In this document: in pieces, positions 28,746 to 37,030 of the stretch
Layout: each line of letters begins with the position of its first letter
How positions within the stretch are numbered: the first letter of the stretch is position 1
From: Faecalibacterium sp.
GTDB taxonomy: Bacteria; Bacillota; Clostridia; Oscillospirales; Ruminococcaceae
Reading direction: 5' to 3'
Assembly: GCA_029264955.1 (NCBI GenBank)
Contig: JARHYC010000017.1
Location: forward strand, 1 to 47,655
DNA: 47,655 bases
Made by a program: the position numbers and the translations under genes
Notes under the pieces: model-generated
Database searches by the model: none
Told to the model about the DNA's origin: nothing
The model's input: the letters and a program-made list of their open reading frames with translations, nothing else

Positions 28746-28909
28746 AAAGCGAGAAGTCTGTCTTATTTTACGACAAGTATAAAAATGCTTTTGCAGGGGT
28801 ATGATTCAAAAAGTAGCATATGTACTGTAAGAGAAAAATCAAAAGCACGGGGCAATGCGTAAAAAATGGAAAAACACCACGCGTTTTGCTAGAAAAGAAA
28901 GAGCGGGTA

Positions 28910-28918
28910 TGCTATAAT
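28910..28918 (+). promoter_or_regulatory. Extended -10 promoter of rlmB
   Basis: TGCTATAAT (TATAAT at 28913-28918). A GC-rich mini-hairpin (GCGCC/GGCGC) lies in the leader at about 28944-28958. Confidence 0.65.
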
Positions 28919-28979
28919 TTATCTGTATAGGTAGATAAAAGGTGCGCCTTTTCGGCGCGTGATGATAAAAGGAGTAGAT

Positions 28980-29861
28980 ATGGAACAGTTCAAGCCTTAT
29001 GGACGCCCCCCGCGTAAGGATCGCAACGAGCGTAAACCGCGTGAAAACCGCCCTTTCCGAGAGGATCGTCCCATTCGTGAGGAGCGTATCCCGCAGGAAG
29101 AACGCCCTGAAGGTGGCAACCTGAAGAGTGAAATCATTTATGGTAAAAATCCCGTTACTGAACTGCTCAAGAGCGGCAAGGGTGTAGATACCGTCCTGAT
29201 CAGTGACGGCATGGCTCCGGCGGTGGCTTCTTATTACACTGCAATGGCAAAAGATGTGGGTGCGGTTGTTAAGCGTGTGAATCCTAACAAACTGCGCGCT
29301 ATGACCGGCACCGAAAGCCATCAGGGCGTGGCAGCATTTGCCAGCGAAATCGGCTATGCTACGCTGGACGAACTGCTGAACATTGCAAAAGAAAAGGGCG
29401 AACCGCCGTTCCTGGTGCTGTCTGACGGCATTGAGGACCCGCACAATCTGGGTGCAGTGATTCGCAGTGCACTGCTGTGTGGTGCGCATGGTATTGTGAT
29501 TCCGAAACGTGGTGGTGCAGCGGTTACCGCTACTGTTATGAAGTCCAGTGCGGGTGCAGCAGAGCGTTTGCCGGTGGCGCGTGTGGCAAACATTGCGGAA
29601 ACCATTCGTCGTCTCAAGGATGAGGGCGTATTTGTGTATTGTGCCGATATGGATGGCACTTCCCTGAAAAAGACCAACCTGTCCGGTCCTGTTGCATTGG
29701 TTCTGGGCAGCGAGGGCAGCGGTGTCAGCCAGCTGGTCAAGAAGCGCTGTGACGGTGCCGTGCGCCTGGATATGGCTGCACCTGGTACTGGTGTGGACAG
29801 CTTTAATGTGTCGGTAGCAGCCGGTATCATTTTGTATGAGATCATGTCGCAGCGCGGCTAA
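28980..29861 (+). CDS. rlmB: 23S rRNA 2'-O-methyltransferase, RlmB/TrmH family
   Basis: A 293-residue SPOUT methyltransferase. Motif 1 is DGIEDPHNLGAVIRSA, motif 2 VLGSEGSGV and motif 3 DSFNVSVAAGI, as in RlmB, which methylates G2251 of 23S rRNA. The N-terminal 45 or so residues are an Arg/Glu/Pro-rich disordered extension not needed in the core family. ATG 28980 has GGAG 5 bases upstream; an earlier in-frame ATG has none. The next gene starts 17 bases on. Confidence 0.9.
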   Translation: MEQFKPYGRPPRKDRNERKPRENRPFREDRPIREERIPQEERPEGGNLKSEIIYGKNPVTELLKSGKGVDTVLISDGMAPAVASYYTAMAKDVGAVVKRVNPNKLRAMTGTESHQGVAAFASEIGYATLDELLNIAKEKGEPPFLVLSDGIEDPHNLGAVIRSALLCGAHGIVIPKRGGAAVTATVMKSSAGAAERLPVARVANIAETIRRLKDEGVFVYCADMDGTSLKKTNLSGPVALVLGSEGSGVSQLVKKRCDGAVRLDMAAPGTGVDSFNVSVAAGIILYEIMSQRG

Positions 29862-29878
29862 AAAAGGGGGAGAGAACG

Positions 29879-32800
29879 ATGCAGGAAAAGCAGGGAGAAA
29901 ATCGTTCTGACGATAACTGGTCCCAAAATATCTTTCATCGGGAAAACGGACCGGCAAACGGCGAGGAACTGCAACAGGATGAGGCGTTCCGCGAATTCTT
30001 TACCAATACTGTTATTGAGGTTCCAGAGGATATGCGCCATGTAACGGCACGTATTTTGCTGGAAGAACAAGCGGAGCCACCAAAGAAAAAAGGCTTTTTC
30101 TCTTGGTTGCGCCGCAAAGATGACGAGGATGAGGAAGAAGCGTTTTACGAAGAGGAAACGTCCGATGTGCAGGCAGAGGAAGAGGAATCTTTTGAAACGG
30201 ACTTCGAGGACGGCGATGACGATGCTTCGGAAGAAGATGTGCTGGAAGAGTCCAGCCTGATGGAGTTTGATCAGCAATCTCAGCCGGAGCCCCAGAAAAA
30301 AACAGAGCAGACACCGAAAGCAGAGCCTCAGCAGGAAGAGAAACCTGCAGAGAAACAGCATAGAATTACGGCAGATGAGCTGATGCGAAAAACGGCACAG
30401 CAAAAGGTGTCGGTAGACGAGCTGCTGAATCAAATTAACTATTTAGAAAACGGCGAGATCGATCCGGAACCCAAAAAGCTGGCTGCAGAGCCGCAGGAAC
30501 CCAAGGTGTTGATGCCGGAAATGCAGCCTTGCACAGAGATGCAGCCAGAAACCGAACCGGTACTGCCCCACGAAGAAGAGCCCCAGCCTGTACAAATGGA
30601 ATCTGCACAGGCAGAGAAAAAGCGCTTGGATGAAATGATGGCGGGTATCTATACACACGCAAGTGAAGCGGATGTGTCGCCTTCCATGATGCTTGTAGAA
30701 GAAGATGGCGAAGTTGGCGAGGAAAAGATTGACCGTGATACGGTAACGCTGGAAATTCCACTGAACCTTTCACAAGAGCTGCAGATGCCTGCGGAAGGAA
30801 CCGTGCAAACGGGTGAAATTCTACTGAGTGCAGAAGCGGATGCATCTGATGAAGATGCGTTGGTGAGCCAGTGGGACTTTGCGGAAAAAGAAGCAGAGCC
30901 TACGGGAGAAATCAGCTTTACCAAATTGGAAGAGCCGGAGACTGCTGCGGAGGATTTTATACCGGATGCAGATAACGATACACAGGGAACCGTTGCGCTT
31001 GAACGGGAAGGCGCCGACGATACATCCGATGCGGAAGAGGCATCGGAAGAAAAACATGGTGGCTGGCATGGCATCCTGAATATGCTGGGTCTGGACAGCA
31101 TTCGGGAAGAGGTGGAAGCCGATACAGATGAGGAAGAACTGGAAGAGGAATCCGAGGAGGATAGCGAAGCACAGGAAACCGAAAAAAACGGTTTTAAGTT
31201 TGTTTTCCGAAAATGGTTCGGCGGTGACAAATCCGAGTCTGAACAGGAAGAGCAAAGATTGGCAGAACAGGAATCGGCAGAACTGCCGATTGAAGAATAC
31301 ACGAATCCCGAGGATGCACCACAGCTGCAGGAGCGTCTGCAAAAACGTTGTTCTCAGCTGACGCTGGCAACAGCAATTTCTGGCATTTTAGCGGTAGCTT
31401 TGCTGGTGCTGGATATTCTGGGACAGTTTGGCACCGATATGCTGACTGGTGTGGACCCGATTGCATCTCCCGCCACATGGCTTTGCGTGAACCTGTTGCT
31501 GCTGTTGGGATGTGCGTTGCTGAACACACATGGTTTGATAGAAGGCTTAAAGAGTTTGTTGCCCGGCAACAAACCTACAGCAGATGGCTTGCCTGCGCTG
31601 GCGGTTTGTGCGGCTGCGATGCAGTTGGTGCTGGCACTGGTGTTCCTGAAAGATTTTGATTTGACCAAACAGGCTATGTTTGCCGGTATGGCAGCCATTC
31701 TGGTTTTTGCAAGTTTGCTGGGCAAGCGCATGAAAGCCGCGGTGGATCGTGACGGGTTTGCCGGTATGACCTCCGGTGTGAATCATTCGACGGCCTATCG
31801 TCTGGAAGATCGTGCCATGACACAGCTGTTGTGCAATGGGATGGACGAGGACGACCCAGTTGTGATGCTGAGCCGACCGGATGCAATGATGAAAGGCTTT
31901 GTCGCACAGAGCAGTGCGCCACACTATTGCGATCAGCGTTCGGTACTATTGGTTCGCCTGCTGGGGGCGGCGGCCTTGGTTGGTGCATTCATTACGATGG
32001 TGCGCGGCGGAAATGCCGTTACAGCAATGTCAGTGCTGGCAGGCGTGTTGTGCTTGGGCGCTCCTGTGGGAATGCTGCTGCTGTGTGGTGTGTCTACTCT
32101 GCTGATGCAGAAATCTGCCAGCCAGGTTGGCGCAGTGATACCCGGATGGCCGTCAATCGAAAAACTGGGCGAAGTGGATGTGCTGCAGGTAGATGCATCT
32201 GAGCTGTTCCCGCCGATTTGTGCACGACTGGACGGTATCAAAACCTTCCAGAAAGAGCGAATTGATTCAGCCATCCTGTATGCAACCAGCGTTCTGATTG
32301 CAGGCTGCAATACATTAGAAGGTTTGTTCCGGGGCATGATTGAAAATCATACGGATATGCTGTACCCAGTCAAGGATTTGGAAGTGCGTACCGGTCGTGG
32401 TTATGTGGCGTGGTGTGATCATTGCCGTGTGGTACTGGGTACCCGCGAAATGATGCAGGACGAAGGCATTGCTCTGCCGGCACTGGATTATGAAAAGCGC
32501 TATACCAAAGAAGGCAGCAGCCATGTGCTGTACTTGGCGGTTTCCGGTAAGCTGTATGCGATGTTCCTGTTTGGTTATAACGGTACGAAACAGGTAGCAC
32601 ATACGCTGAATATTTTGCGCAAGGAAAATATTCGTCTGCTGGTAACCGCACAGGACCCCACTCTTACCGAGCGCCGTATTGAAGAAATCTATCGTCTGCG
32701 TCCCGGTTTGGTAAAGGTTTTGAATGCGGATGAAACCGAGCGTCTGCGACCGGCGGTGGGCTATCTGCCGTATGAGGATGGCTGCATGGTGCATCTGGGC

Positions 32801-33025
32801 GGATTTGTCAGTATGGTAGGTGGTTTGCGTGCTGCGGCTGGTGCGGAAGACGCACAGCGCAGCGGAAGTACGATACAGACAGTTGCAGCAGCAGTGGCAA
32901 TAGTGATTGGCTTGCTGCTGAGTGTGACCGGAGGCATGGCCTCGATCAGCTTAGTTGCGGTGCTGCTGTACCAGCTGGCATGGGCAACGTTGGGCATTGT
33001 GCTTGCCGCAACTAAAAAATATTAA
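29879..33025 (+). CDS. Catalytically degenerate P-type ATPase-like membrane protein with acidic N-terminal extension
   Basis: A 1048-residue protein. Residues 1 to about 485 are Glu/Asp/Pro/Gln-rich and disordered, with two short non-acidic patches (for example KVSVDELLNQINYLENG). The rest follows a P1B/P-type ATPase plan: helices from about 495, a P-domain approach reading PSIEKLGEVDVLQVDASEL near residue 771 (a normal enzyme has DKTGT there), an N-domain match VVLGTREMMQDEG near 853, LLVTAQDP near 920 where MLTGDN is expected, and two terminal helices. The CPC metal motif is replaced by GAP. All catalytic motifs are lost, so it is probably not a pump and may be a scaffold or sensor. It follows rlmB by 17 bases. 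Confidence 0.75.
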   Translation: MQEKQGENRSDDNWSQNIFHRENGPANGEELQQDEAFREFFTNTVIEVPEDMRHVTARILLEEQAEPPKKKGFFSWLRRKDDEDEEEAFYEEETSDVQAEEEESFETDFEDGDDDASEEDVLEESSLMEFDQQSQPEPQKKTEQTPKAEPQQEEKPAEKQHRITADELMRKTAQQKVSVDELLNQINYLENGEIDPEPKKLAAEPQEPKVLMPEMQPCTEMQPETEPVLPHEEEPQPVQMESAQAEKKRLDEMMAGIYTHASEADVSPSMMLVEEDGEVGEEKIDRDTVTLEIPLNLSQELQMPAEGTVQTGEILLSAEADASDEDALVSQWDFAEKEAEPTGEISFTKLEEPETAAEDFIPDADNDTQGTVALEREGADDTSDAEEASEEKHGGWHGILNMLGLDSIREEVEADTDEEELEEESEEDSEAQETEKNGFKFVFRKWFGGDKSESEQEEQRLAEQESAELPIEEYTNPEDAPQLQERLQKRCSQLTLATAISGILAVALLVLDILGQFGTDMLTGVDPIASPATWLCVNLLLLLGCALLNTHGLIEGLKSLLPGNKPTADGLPALAVCAAAMQLVLALVFLKDFDLTKQAMFAGMAAILVFASLLGKRMKAAVDRDGFAGMTSGVNHSTAYRLEDRAMTQLLCNGMDEDDPVVMLSRPDAMMKGFVAQSSAPHYCDQRSVLLVRLLGAAALVGAFITMVRGGNAVTAMSVLAGVLCLGAPVGMLLLCGVSTLLMQKSASQVGAVIPGWPSIEKLGEVDVLQVDASELFPPICARLDGIKTFQKERIDSAILYATSVLIAGCNTLEGLFRGMIENHTDMLYPVKDLEVRTGRGYVAWCDHCRVVLGTREMMQDEGIALPALDYEKRYTKEGSSHVLYLAVSGKLYAMFLFGYNGTKQVAHTLNILRKENIRLLVTAQDPTLTERRIEEIYRLRPGLVKVLNADETERLRPAVGYLPYEDGCMVHLGGFVSMVGGLRAAAGAEDAQRSGSTIQTVAAAVAIVIGLLLSVTGGMASISLVAVLLYQLAWATLGIVLAATKKY

Positions 33026-33107: not shown

Positions 33108-33181
33108 CACAGCAATGCAATGTTTTTGCAGTGCTGTGAAATTGCAGTCTGTTGCAGTTTTGCAACAGACTGTTTTGTTTT
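33108..33181 (+). ncRNA. Structured leader with terminator upstream of the permease
   Basis: The predicted transcript forms a first hairpin (33108-33120 with 33126-33138, one mismatch) and then a 12-bp perfect stem (33145-33156 with 33161-33172) followed by TTTTGTTTT, a full intrinsic terminator. TTGCAG occurs three times (33126, 33142, 33152), so the 5' arm GCAATGCAA could pair alternatively. The ribosome site of the permease lies 12 bases beyond. This looks like an attenuator or riboswitch-type leader, or a small terminated RNA. Confidence 0.6.
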
Positions 33182-33204: not shown

Positions 33205-34113
33205 TTGTTTGAAGAATTGTTTCATCACTTTATGCCACATATGCTGTCACACGTCTTGGATCATGCACTGACAGATACGATTCAAATGTTGCCGTTATTG
33301 TATCTGGCTTGTCTGCTGATTGAATATATCGAGAGCCGCCACGGCGAGTCCATCGAGCGTGCGCTGGCACGCAGCGGGCGATGGGGCTTTATCCCGGCAT
33401 CTGTGCTGGGCTGTGTGCCGCAGTGCGGATTTTCAGCAGTTGCTGCGAATCTATATTCTTCGAAAGTAATTACGCTGGGAACCTTAATGGCAGTGTTCCT
33501 GTCTACCAGTGATGAGGCGATTCCGCTGCTGGCATCTATGCCGGGTCAGTGGCATATGCTGGTGATTTTGCTGGGCATCAAAGTGGTTTACGCACTGGGT
33601 GTAGGCTTTCTGTTGGATGGCATTTTGCGCCGTCTGATGCCTGTTGGTCTGCGCGGCGGTTATACCGGCCATGCGGACGAAGTGGATTGCCACAGCGAGC
33701 ATGAAGGTGCAGAGAGTGTCAACATTTGGCGGGCTGCATTGCGTCATACATTGGAACTTTCCTTCTTTATTATTCTATTCAGCGTCCTGTTTGGATTGAT
33801 TGTGGAGCTGGTGGGGTATGATGCTTTCTCCGGTGCATTGCGCGGTCTGGGCGTGATTCAGCCGATGGTAGCCGCATTGGTTGGGCTGATTCCCAACTGC
33901 GCTGCAAGCGTGTTATTGACCCAGATGTATGTATCCGGTGCCATTCGTTTTTCCAGCTTGGTAGCTGGTTTGGCTACTGGTGCGGGTATCGGTCTGGCGG
34001 TGCTGTGGCGCACAAACCGCAGCTGGAAACAAAATCTCTTTATCACTGGTCTACTGTGGGCAGCAGGCTCCTTTGTGGGCATTTTCATCCAGGTGGTCAT
34101 GCTGTTTGTATAA
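33205..34113 (+). CDS. 10TM heavy-metal exporter-like permease (ArsP_2 type)
   Basis: A 302-residue polytopic protein. It has two related halves, each with a Cys-containing or Pro/Asn-containing loop (SVLGCVPQCGFSAVAANLYS and LIPNCAASVLLTQMYVSGAI), the arrangement of the putative manganese or heavy-metal permease family. A hydrophilic loop of about 40 residues with His/Asp separates the halves. TTG 33205 is chosen because GGGGG lies 7 bases upstream; ATG 33232 is the alternative. The substrate is not known. Expression is probably set by the leader terminator at 33145-33181. Confidence 0.82.
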   Translation: MFEELFHHFMPHMLSHVLDHALTDTIQMLPLLYLACLLIEYIESRHGESIERALARSGRWGFIPASVLGCVPQCGFSAVAANLYSSKVITLGTLMAVFLSTSDEAIPLLASMPGQWHMLVILLGIKVVYALGVGFLLDGILRRLMPVGLRGGYTGHADEVDCHSEHEGAESVNIWRAALRHTLELSFFIILFSVLFGLIVELVGYDAFSGALRGLGVIQPMVAALVGLIPNCAASVLLTQMYVSGAIRFSSLVAGLATGAGIGLAVLWRTNRSWKQNLFITGLLWAAGSFVGIFIQVVMLFV

Positions 34114-34230: not shown

Positions 34231-35076
34231 ATGGAGAACCAATATGTTTTATATGCCAGCGATTTTGATAACACGCTGGTTCCCCTGGGGGAAAGCTGCC
34301 CTCGGAAAGAAGTAGAGCGTGCCGTACAGAATTTGAAAGCACAGGGGGCGACGTTCGTGATTTGTACGGGCCGTTCCCAGAGTTCGCTTTGTGGCTCCAA
34401 AAAGTTGCTGGGCAAACTCAAATTTGATTATGCCGTATGCAATAACGGTGCTCATATCATCGATGCAAAGGGGCAGACCATCAGTAAGATTACGCTCACC
34501 AATGAAGAAATGTATGCACTGGTGGATTTCTGTGAGGATTATGATTACCCGCTGCAGTTTGCGTTCTCGGATGGATACTATGCATACGTCGGTTATGATC
34601 TGGTTAAGGAATCTTTTCAAAAACTGGCGCAAGCAGGTACAAATCTGATTGTGCTGGACGGCGAAGATCAAGATCGCCATCTGGATGAAATGCCGGTATC
34701 TGCCTTTTTGATGTTCCCGCCGGATGGCTTGGAGCGTTTCCGGGAAAAGTATGGATATCTGGGTTTGGAGTTTTTGCCCATTGCCAATGTATATGATATT
34801 GGCGACTGGTGCAGTTATGACGTCATGCGCTCTGGTGTGGATAAGGGCAAGAGCCTGACCGCTTTGTGCGAAAGCCTGGAAATCCCCATGAGCAAAGTAG
34901 TTGCTACTGGTGACGGACACAATGATCTGGGCATGATTCGTGCGGCAGGTTTGGGCTGTGCAATGGAAAATGCACCGCAGGCAGTAAAGGATGCGGCGGT
35001 TCGTGTTTTACCAAGCGCACGCAAGGAAGGTGTTGCACCACTGCTGAATGAATTGTGGTCTTGTGTAAAAGATTGA
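34231..35076 (+). CDS. HAD-superfamily phosphatase, Cof type
   Basis: A 281-residue cytosolic phosphatase of the Cof/YbjI kind (HAD IIB). Motif I is SDFDNTLVP with Asp11 as nucleophile and Asp13 as acid/base, motif II ICTGRS, motif III the Lys in VDKGKS, and motif IV ATGDGHNDLGM. Typical substrates are sugar phosphates or flavin/nucleotide phosphates; none can be chosen. AAGGAG precedes the ATG. A promoter TGTTATACT lies just after the previous terminator. Confidence 0.94.
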   Translation: MENQYVLYASDFDNTLVPLGESCPRKEVERAVQNLKAQGATFVICTGRSQSSLCGSKKLLGKLKFDYAVCNNGAHIIDAKGQTISKITLTNEEMYALVDFCEDYDYPLQFAFSDGYYAYVGYDLVKESFQKLAQAGTNLIVLDGEDQDRHLDEMPVSAFLMFPPDGLERFREKYGYLGLEFLPIANVYDIGDWCSYDVMRSGVDKGKSLTALCESLEIPMSKVVATGDGHNDLGMIRAAGLGCAMENAPQAVKDAAVRVLPSARKEGVAPLLNELWSCVKD

Positions 35077-35171
35077 TTCATTGTAAAATATGGATAAATT
35101 CTCCTGCTGTTTGCGCAATCTTAAAAAGAAGCAACGGCAGGCAATCATTTTACGATAGAGGGGACAATACC

Positions 35172-35795
35172 GTGAGTAAAATCATACGGATCGAGAAGCC
35201 TAGTGTACTGCCCTGGTATGGTGCAGCTGCGGTCTGGTTGGTCATGGGGCTGGCTGCACCGCTTTACAGTCTTCCTGTATTGATAGGTACAGCTGGTCTG
35301 AGTGGCGTTGTATTTGTGGCAGCAAAAAAGATTTGTCCGCCCCGTGTTGTGGAGCATGAGGTAGGATTCCATACTGGTGTGGATGACGTGGACCAGATGC
35401 TGGAAGCGATGGAAAAGGAACTAAGTGCCCTCCATACACTGAATGCTGCGCTGCCTGACCCGCAGTTATCTGCTGCGATGCAGCGGATGGAGCAAGCTGG
35501 ACGCAGTATTCTGGAAGTGGTGGAGCAAAATCCAGCGAAAGGCAAAACGGCACGACGATTTGCCAACTACTATCTGCCGGATGCGGTGCGTGTGTTAAGC
35601 CAGTATGCTGCATTGGCTCGACAGGGCGTGCGTGGTGAAAACGCCGCTTCGGTCAAGGCGGAAGTAGAGCAGAATGCGGCACAGATTGCAACCGCATTTG
35701 AAAATCAACTGGATGCATTGTATGCGGCAGAAAGTATGGACCTTTCGGCAGATTTGGAAGTTCTGCAGAACATGATGAAGGGCCAAGGGCTGTAA
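35172..35795 (+). CDS. xpaC: XpaC-like (BCIP-hydrolysis family) protein
   Basis: A 207-residue membrane-anchored protein of the XpaC family. Two hydrophobic helices (about 18-55) are followed by a helical cytoplasmic region with ADLEVLQNMMKGQGL at the end. The family is named for an indolyl-phosphate phenotype but has no proven enzyme activity. It is nearly always next to telA, as here (gap 50 bases). GTG 35172 has GGGGA upstream. Confidence 0.85.
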   Translation: MSKIIRIEKPSVLPWYGAAAVWLVMGLAAPLYSLPVLIGTAGLSGVVFVAAKKICPPRVVEHEVGFHTGVDDVDQMLEAMEKELSALHTLNAALPDPQLSAAMQRMEQAGRSILEVVEQNPAKGKTARRFANYYLPDAVRVLSQYAALARQGVRGENAASVKAEVEQNAAQIATAFENQLDALYAAESMDLSADLEVLQNMMKGQGL

Positions 35796-35845
35796 GCTGA
35801 AATATTGTAAATTGTTTAACGAAATGGAAAGGATGGAATTATATT

Positions 35846-37030
35846 ATGGCAGAGAACAATGAACTGAATCTGGAGTTGGAAGCACCCGTTAGTGTGCCGA
35901 CCCTGACGCTGGACCCGATGGAAACTGAGGCAGAAGCAGAAAAGCCTGTGGAAGAAGAAAAGCAGGAAGAAGTCGTTGCGGGAAAGCGAGTGGAAGAAAC
36001 CATCGAGTTGAGTGCCGAAGAGCAGGCTGTTGTGGATGCGTTTGTAGAAAAAATTGACGTGACCAACAGCCAGCAGGTTTTGCAGTATGGTGCTGCCAGC
36101 CAGAAGAAGATTGGCGATTTTTCTGAAACAGCCCTGGGCAAGGTTCGTACGAAGGACCTGGGCGAAGTGGGCGATATGGTTACGGACCTGATTGGTGAAC
36201 TGCAGAAATTTGATGCCGCTGAGGAAAGCAAGGGCTTTTTGGGCTTCTTTAAGAAAAAGGGTGCGCAGATTCAGCAGCTGAAGACCCGTTATGACAAGGC
36301 TGAAACCAATGTGGATAAGATTCAGTCCATGCTGGAGCAGCATCAGGTTACTTTGCTGAAAGATATTGCTATGATGGACAAGATGTACGAGCTGAATATG
36401 CAGTACTTCAAAGAGCTGAGTATGTATATCATTGCTGGTAAGAAGAAGCTGGAAATCGTGCGCGGCACCACACTGCAGCAGGCAATGGATAAGGCAAAGG
36501 AATCCGGTTTGCCGGAGGATGCGCAGGCTGCTCGTGATTTGAGCGATATGTGCGAGCGTTTTGAAAAGAAGCTGTATGATCTGGAACTGACCCGTAATAT
36601 CAGTCTGCAGATGGGCCCCCAGATTCGTCTAATTCAGAATAACGATAATATGATGGCAGAAAAGATCCAGTCTACCATCGTGAATACAATTCCCCTGTGG
36701 AAGAATCAGATGGTTCTGGCTTTGGGCCTGGCACACAGCCGTGAAGCAATGGAAGCTCAGCGCGCGGTGAGTGATATGACCAATGACCTGCTGAAGAAAA
36801 ATGCAGAGGTTCTGAAGGTTGGTACGGTGGAAACTGCCAAGGAATCCCAGCGCGGCATTGTGGATATTGAAACCCTGAAGGAAACAAACAAGAGCCTGAT
36901 TGATACCTTGGATGAGCTGAATAAGATTCAGGTTGACGGCCGTAAGAAACGAGCAGAAGCAGAGCAGGAGCTGACCAAGATCGAGGACGAACTGAAGAAC
37001 AAAATGCTGGAGGTATCCCAGCGTGGCTGA
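35846..37030 (+). CDS. telA: TelA family toxic-anion resistance protein
   Basis: A 394-residue helical protein of the TelA (tellurite/toxic anion) family. An acidic, Glu-rich N terminus precedes repeated amphipathic helices (about 70-390) that include KKKGAQIQQLKTRYDKAE and the family's late segment DIETLKETNKSLIDTLDEL. TelA proteins form coiled coils, and some are linked to envelope stress and peptide-antibiotic resistance; the direct function is unresolved. It follows xpaC. Confidence 0.9.
   Translation: MAENNELNLELEAPVSVPTLTLDPMETEAEAEKPVEEEKQEEVVAGKRVEETIELSAEEQAVVDAFVEKIDVTNSQQVLQYGAASQKKIGDFSETALGKVRTKDLGEVGDMVTDLIGELQKFDAAEESKGFLGFFKKKGAQIQQLKTRYDKAETNVDKIQSMLEQHQVTLLKDIAMMDKMYELNMQYFKELSMYIIAGKKKLEIVRGTTLQQAMDKAKESGLPEDAQAARDLSDMCERFEKKLYDLELTRNISLQMGPQIRLIQNNDNMMAEKIQSTIVNTIPLWKNQMVLALGLAHSREAMEAQRAVSDMTNDLLKKNAEVLKVGTVETAKESQRGIVDIETLKETNKSLIDTLDELNKIQVDGRKKRAEAEQELTKIEDELKNKMLEVSQRG

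Follow-up and report, generated by a model that had tools for sequence, protein, structure and literature searches.

A conserved bacterial family of P-type ATPase-like membrane proteins without catalytic motifs, with a possible role as a membrane scaffold

Results

A family of proteins with the P-type ATPase fold and no intact catalytic motif

The window (the whole stretch of 47,655 nucleotides analysed here, from Faecalibacterium sp.) contains a gene, present as one copy in the genome, for a membrane protein with the predicted fold of a heavy-metal (P1B) P-type ATPase. The family to which it belongs is real, conserved and, as far as we have searched, undescribed. Judging from the missing motifs, its members probably lack catalytic activity; they combine a conserved fold with conserved loss of the catalytic residues and selection for function, i.e., they form a pseudoenzyme family of known fold. 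We put at about an even chance the reading that the protein is a membrane scaffold or adaptor, derived from a dead P1B pump, with a tail that would catch partners. The features of the gene and its surroundings are listed in Table 1.

Table 1. Features of the pseudo-P-type ATPase gene and the adjoining DNA (window positions)
Feature	Position	Strand	Basis or remark
Promoter-like site TAGAAA-17-TATAAT, TG before the second hexamer	28890..28918	+	Upstream of rlmB; consensus scan
rlmB, 23S rRNA (guanosine(2251)-2'-O)-methyltransferase	28959..29861	+	TIGR00186, E 6.1e-64, above cut-off
17-nt gap, rlmB stop to ATG, with purine-rich ribosome-binding-like stretch (GGGGGAGAG)	29862..29878	+	Sequence read directly
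Pseudo-P-type ATPase gene	29879..33025	+	ORF, ATG start, 1048 aa
Acidic N-terminal tail (aa 1-476)	29879..31306	+	30% D+E, net charge -101; disordered by composition
FxxFFxx[ST]V motif, FREFFTNTV (aa 37-45)	29987..30013	+	27/127 members vs shuffled mean 0.005
Basic-aromatic segment KKKGFFSWLRRK (aa 69-80)	30083..30118	+	13/127 members vs shuffled mean 0.075
Helices MA, MB, M1, M2 (aa 477-630)	31307..31768	+	Model helices 4-41, 55-82, 94-112, 126-154
Stub replacing actuator domain (aa 631-682)	31769..31924	+	Model residues 155-206; no TGE in window copy
Helices M3-M4, GAP at the place of CPC (aa 683-750)	31925..32128	+	Model and alignment
Degenerate phosphorylation site DASELFP (aa 772-778), P domain	32192..32212	+	Alignment, 127 members
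N domain (aa 780-902), best conserved part	32216..32584	+
Asp926 of TGD loop, retained	32654..32656	+	Asp in 126/127 members
Helices M5-M6 with conserved W1035 (aa 975-1048)	32801..33022	+	Model and conservation
Terminator-like hairpin, 13 pairs, T-rich tail	33144..33173	+	Closes the rlmB-pseudo-pump unit

A Pfam search with the window protein matched no family. Against NCBIfam, the open reading frame matched CopA (E = 4.1e-7) and the heavy-metal ATPase model TIGR01525 (E = 1.7e-5), both far below the curated cut-offs. In a sequence search of the PDB, 3rfu matched with E = 2.9e-5, improving to 6e-26 when the family profile was used as the query. An AlphaFold2 model, Foldseek and VIA-align agreed on a P-type ATPase fold for the window protein. 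As the initial annotation had proposed in reading a P-type plan in the C-terminal part, the structure search gave a clear match to the P and N domains of P-type ATPases; the sequence that it had singled out, VLGTREMMQDEG, starts at aa 852. Foldseek again assigned a P-type fold to L110, a divergent member without a tail that is 14-22% identical to its alignment partners. In its overall fold, i.e., the helices and the P and N domains, the protein is a member of the P1B class. In a Foldseek search of viral models, the matches at E 0.001 or better were all to pumps of giant viruses and had low scores.

With CopA from Legionella (LpCopA, 3rfu/4bbj) the protein shares the eight-helix layout with MA and MB, the P and N domains, a GNRELM-like loop in the N domain, the Asp of TGD and the proline of M4. 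Unlike CopA, it has no DKTGT, TGE, GDGxND, CPC or HP, its A domain is cut to ~50 residues, a long acidic tail replaces the metal-binding domains, and its gene lies behind rlmB.

The catalytic residues are lost throughout the family

Motifs were counted in 127 aligned members (126 distinct, L063 and L071 being duplicates), a set that omits the second copies of loci fetched twice and also L132/L075, where an internal stop splits the gene. As controls we took the 28 open reading frames of true pumps that matched profile A1 (65 sequences) in the fetched loci, 26 from outside the order and two from the window's own genome. All 28 have DKTGT, TGES and GDG[IV]ND, and 21 have EHPL.

In the window protein, DKTGT has become DASEL (aa 772-776), CPC has become GAP (aa 727-729) and the TGD region reads LLVTAQD, ending at D926, exactly as first annotated. 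The loss is conserved across the host's order, DKTGT being kept in 0/127 aligned homologues as against 28/28 true pumps. Column by column, Asp of DKTGT is found in 40 of the 127 members, Lys in none, the first Thr in 15, Gly in one and the last Thr in none, with DKTG elsewhere in the sequence of a single member (L038). The Gly of TGD survives in one member and its Asp in 126. Neither Asp of GDGxND, nor its Asn, occurs in the aligned columns of any member (the column pairing being taken from the 3rfu sequence alignment), and GDGxxD is absent anywhere in the 127 cores. The actuator domain with its TGE is missing, M2 and M3 being 52 residues apart in the model; TGE[STA] occurs anywhere in the core in two members (L045 and L094), lying inside the stub in L094. 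In the CPC columns of M4, Cys precedes the Pro in eight members and follows it in one, and the Pro itself is present in 105. The claim of a total loss of catalysis thus holds for the catalytic residues, with D926, the N-domain glycines G841 and G854 and the M4 proline P729 being kept.

A different motif occupies the old DKTGT site. At aa 775-778 it consists of Asp or Glu (106 of 127 members), Leu, Ile or Val (123), Phe or Tyr (122, with Phe at aa 777 in 116) and Pro (108). The conservation of this motif in the place of DKTGT suggests that the phosphorylation site has been replaced and has not simply drifted. At aa 924-928, [TS]xD[PF]N is common among the members.

The retained Asp926 and the conserved [DE]LFP at the old site are what could be cited for a pump that still works, with an unorthodox catalytic site. 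Such a case has been made for ERMA/TMEM94, for which one paper claims activity, i.e., Mg2+ pumping (PMC13322241). We regard this as very improbable for the present family, from which the nucleophile (Asp in only 40 members), the Lys, GDGxND, TGE and most of the A domain have all been lost together. We know of no P-type cycle that works without the nucleophile, the Lys, GDGxND, TGE and the A domain.

Conservation is highest in the N domain, with a mean relative entropy of 1.89 against 1.19-1.77 elsewhere, and two glycines of its nucleotide loops are invariant (G841 in 126/126 and G854 in 127/127 members). In P1B pumps the His and Glu of the HP motif are among the main ATP contacts; in the family the HP columns hold His in none of the 127 members and Pro in 29, and the Glu is missing in 121. 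Few polar positions in the membrane are conserved. These results bear on the reading that the protein is a ligand or nucleotide sensor, in which the N domain still binds a small molecule, ATP or another nucleotide, and the helices relay the signal, or else an ATP-independent transporter or channel. In its favor are the conserved N domain with its glycines, the retained M4 proline Pro729 and the case of TMEM94, which binds AMPPCP with micromolar affinity, yet hydrolysed nothing in that study (PMC12134183). Set against it are the lost HP contacts and the paucity of conserved polar membrane positions. We consider such a role possible, if rather doubtful.

The gene is widespread in the order and under purifying selection

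When the C-terminal part was used as the query, 240 of 247 genomes of the host family gave a match at 0.001 or better, and 237 at E 1e-15 or better. The seven genomes without a match include G125 and G200 (97% complete) and G227 (89% complete), a reduced genome of the 0.7-0.9 Mb class. In a sample of the order, which we take to be GTDB's Oscillospirales, profile A1 matched 196 of 197 genomes, 184 of them at 1e-35 or better, a class defined by score, the motifs having been read in the 127 aligned rows only. Of the 13 genomes with weaker or no match, nine are at most 90% complete; the other four (G307, G332, G345 and G373), 95-99% complete, gave weak matches only in this order-wide search, possibly through gene loss or a broken assembly. 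A named relative, from one Faecalibacterium MAG (L109), is 57% identical.

Outside the order, the best match (3.8e-32) came in pieces, mostly from M3 to the P domain. Control pumps scored up to 167 bits on the profile and the weakest aligned member 185, so that it is the motifs, and not the score margin alone, that part the family from true pumps. A FastTree analysis split 41 members from 27 controls with a support of 1.0; with 255 columns aligned to the family's own profile and a midpoint root inside the family, this gives one split and not an origin.

Over the C-terminal part, dN/dS was 0.05-0.34 in 15 close pairs, several of which share a member and are not all independent, and one of which has a dS of 2.6, near saturation. 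The gene is retained in four genomes of 0.7-0.9 Mb (G068, G087, G160 and G174; the first two were also found by the profile), and in G068 rlmB adjoins it (L332). That the gene is decaying on its way out might be supposed from the missing catalytic motifs and from internal stops in at least two places among the matches listed (G268 and G367), but this is refuted by the dN/dS values, the presence throughout the order and the retention in reduced genomes, which leave it almost no probability.

The gene lies behind rlmB and has no constant pump as a neighbor

Of the 79 loci longer than 9 kb, 78 have rlmB immediately upstream of the pseudo-pump gene and in the same orientation. In the remaining one (L132) the pseudo-pump gene is in pieces, the first of which follows rlmB. 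Co-transcription with rlmB is probable. The scan for promoter-like sites found five against 4.4 expected, no more than chance and hence weak evidence. An opposite-strand frame of 372 aa lies over rlmB (window 28839-29957) and can mask it in simple gene calling; the frame recurs, and rlmB was masked in this way in at least 10 loci.

An EF-G-like gene, identified from one annotated representative, follows the pseudo-pump gene in 25 of 75 loci and is not found beside the window copy. There, a membrane protein of the arsenic-efflux type (ArsP_2/NF037962; window 33205-34113) is encoded directly downstream, behind the terminator, and an XpaC-like gene (PF10112) and telA, separated by 50 nt, occupy window 35055-37030. 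A link to sporulation could not be separated from background, a Spo0A domain being present in 35/35 genomes tested, reduced ones included.

A dead pump might also act as a regulatory partner of an active P-type ATPase, in a mixed complex with a true pump. All 35 genomes tested have at least one true P-type ATPase, and a search for partners of this kind, proposed in the initial annotation, found two true pumps in the window's own genome, both with DKTGT and both on other contigs. In four of 79 loci (L044, L045, L046 and L070) a pump with DKTGT and CPC is encoded on the opposite strand, at a distance of 0.3-5.1 kb. By the places listed, a pump lies within ~7 kb in five of 35 genomes (G185, G303, G220, G416 and G053) as against an estimated 1.4 expected, a small and post hoc excess in which G185 is the same case as L045 and G053 as L070. 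However, from 157 pumps in ~69.6 Mb about 3.2 pumps would be expected in the 79 loci (1.41 Mb), so the four observed are no excess, and true pumps number from 1 to 11 per genome. Four reduced genomes (G068, G087, G160 and G174) have only one true P-type ATPase each (L328, L329, L330 and L331, the pump in L328 being cut by the locus end). These pumps carry DKTGT but are of unclear class, as they clear the general P-type threshold and that of none of the subtype models, so that no constant P1B partner remains in these genomes. We therefore judge this role unlikely. The loci with a nearby pump (L044, L045, L046 and L070) also contain a small gene resembling a regulator (cluster 18), which adjoins the P1B-like pump in three of the four.

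The acidic tail carries short motifs

The front of the protein had been described as a 485-residue acidic disordered domain. Its acidity is borne out, its length is 476 aa, and its disorder is judged from composition. As for conservation of the fusion, an N-terminal extension of at least 97 aa is present in 126/127 members, the exception within the order being the family f10. Tails have a median length of 326 aa, a value that rests on predicted and uncertain starts, and are net negative in 120 of the 127 members. In f10 there are, among the matches listed, at least 11 frames of 550-564 aa without a tail (G279, G297, G312, G325, G337, G349, G376, G387, G408, G419 and G428); L110 is also tail-less.

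FxxFFxx[ST]V is a motif of the window's branch. A second pattern, [VILFA][DE][DES][IL][LIM]x[ED], was found in 67 of 127 tails as against 1.4 in shuffles, mostly within the first 40 residues; the strict VDDIL motif is absent from the window's own copy. The regular expressions for these motifs were composed after the motifs had been seen.

Genome-wide pattern scans for the tail motif mostly returned the pseudo-pump itself. The motif also occurred at the cytoplasmic ends of MltG/YceG (L177), an ABC-2 permease (L181, the same genes as L200), sortase-domain proteins (L230 and L233) and an LCP protein (L232, the same genes as L292). In addition, a membrane protein without a Pfam family (L197:1482-2501) ends in RYDIDDILADIEKRHH, the same motif. 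These six examples (L177, L181, L197, L230, L232 and L233) are illustrations from pattern scans and not a rate: one scan gave 100 places as against ~30 with the reversed pattern, of which 30 automatic loci and 20 chosen motif-like places were inspected, and many other matches, e.g., L205 and L214, lie inside unrelated proteins and are due to chance. The C-terminal end of RpoB in L235:40-1431, DFGLDDILDDAMDGEEDL, resembles the tail motif, probably by chance. VDDIL does not appear to be a general feature of MltG or LCP proteins: the strict motif was near the N-terminus in two of 57 loci (1/30 YceG and 1/27 LCP, the latter in a genome chosen for known presence of the motif), a rough lower bound because several of the open reading frames were opposite-strand frames or had wrong starts. 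The sharing of the motif between pseudo-pump and envelope proteins is thus sporadic and should be treated as a lead only.

Discussion

Established here are the fold (as a model), the catalytic loss and its conservation, purifying selection, the place behind rlmB and the short motifs of the tail. From these we infer a role of the kind suggested in the initial annotation, i.e., as scaffold, sensor or regulatory pseudoenzyme. The scaffold reading and its rivals are not fully exclusive of each other.

For the membrane scaffold, the proposed course of events is as follows. A heavy-metal (P1B, CopA-like) ancestor would have lost phosphorylation, dephosphorylation, the metal site and the ATP contacts, a loss that seems to predate the divergence of today's families in the host's order. 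The P-type fold would have been kept as a housekeeping scaffold. The eight-helix body may serve as the membrane anchor, and the P and N domains as a cytoplasmic head whose former active-site edge, with its [AD]x[DE]LFP and TxD[PF]N loops, may have become a binding face. Short motifs of the tail would catch partners, which are likely to be cytoplasmic or envelope proteins because sortase, LCP, MltG and ABC-2 permease proteins sporadically carry the tail motif at a cytoplasmic end. If, as is probable, the gene is transcribed together with rlmB, the protein may be made in step with the translation machinery.

Several results weigh against a scaffold. Members from f10 have no tail, so no tail-based role can be universal. 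It is the N domain and not the active-site edge that is best conserved, a pattern that a ligand sensor could show as well. The sharing of the motif with envelope proteins is sporadic, the window copy lacks a strict VDDIL, and the gene is not universal. A bolder form of the scaffold reading, which we think improbable, is that this first order-wide pseudo-P-type family in bacteria is a membrane hub, retained even in some genomes of 0.7 Mb, with the peptide [FY]x[VIL]D[DE]IL of its tail as a docking tag shared with envelope-building proteins (sortase, LCP, MltG and an ABC-2 exporter), by which the dead pump would organise the assembly of the cell envelope.

Literature searches for inactive P-type ATPases, with most subscription papers outside their reach, returned no bacterial family of such a kind. 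The view that no such system had been described therefore stands for bacteria as far as the literature was searched; in eukaryotes there is a parallel, human TMEM94/ERMA, a P-type fold that has lost TGES and for which one study found neither ATPase activity nor any indication of phosphorylation (PMC12134183). Unlike the present family, TMEM94/ERMA resides in the ER, has ten helices and a full A-like domain and comes closest to SPCA pumps and not to P1B, and the accessible parts of the sources report no comparable acidic tail. PcrP, of the PA2803 subfamily, is a bacterial protein of the HAD superfamily that has lost catalysis and binds protein partners; it is a phosphonatase relative, and the accessible text mentions no membrane part (PMC12632274). 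By analogy, it may be taken as a precedent for a dead bacterial HAD protein turned partner binder. In the apicomplexan guanylyl cyclase a P4-ATPase module is used in signalling, but according to the accessible text the conserved catalytic Asp is present there and P4-ATPase activity is needed (PMC7858053).

The family appears to be without a description in the searchable papers, as a whole conserved family of bacterial P-type ATPases in which all catalysis has been lost. Among other enzymes, pseudokinases and pseudophosphatases are well known. Nearly all genomes of the order, to which major gut bacteria belong, have the gene, and some reduced genomes retain it; it therefore probably has a basic role, one missed by present annotation, in which it matches no Pfam family. 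The family also offers a natural test of what the P-type fold can do without ATP, a question that is disputed for TMEM94/ERMA.
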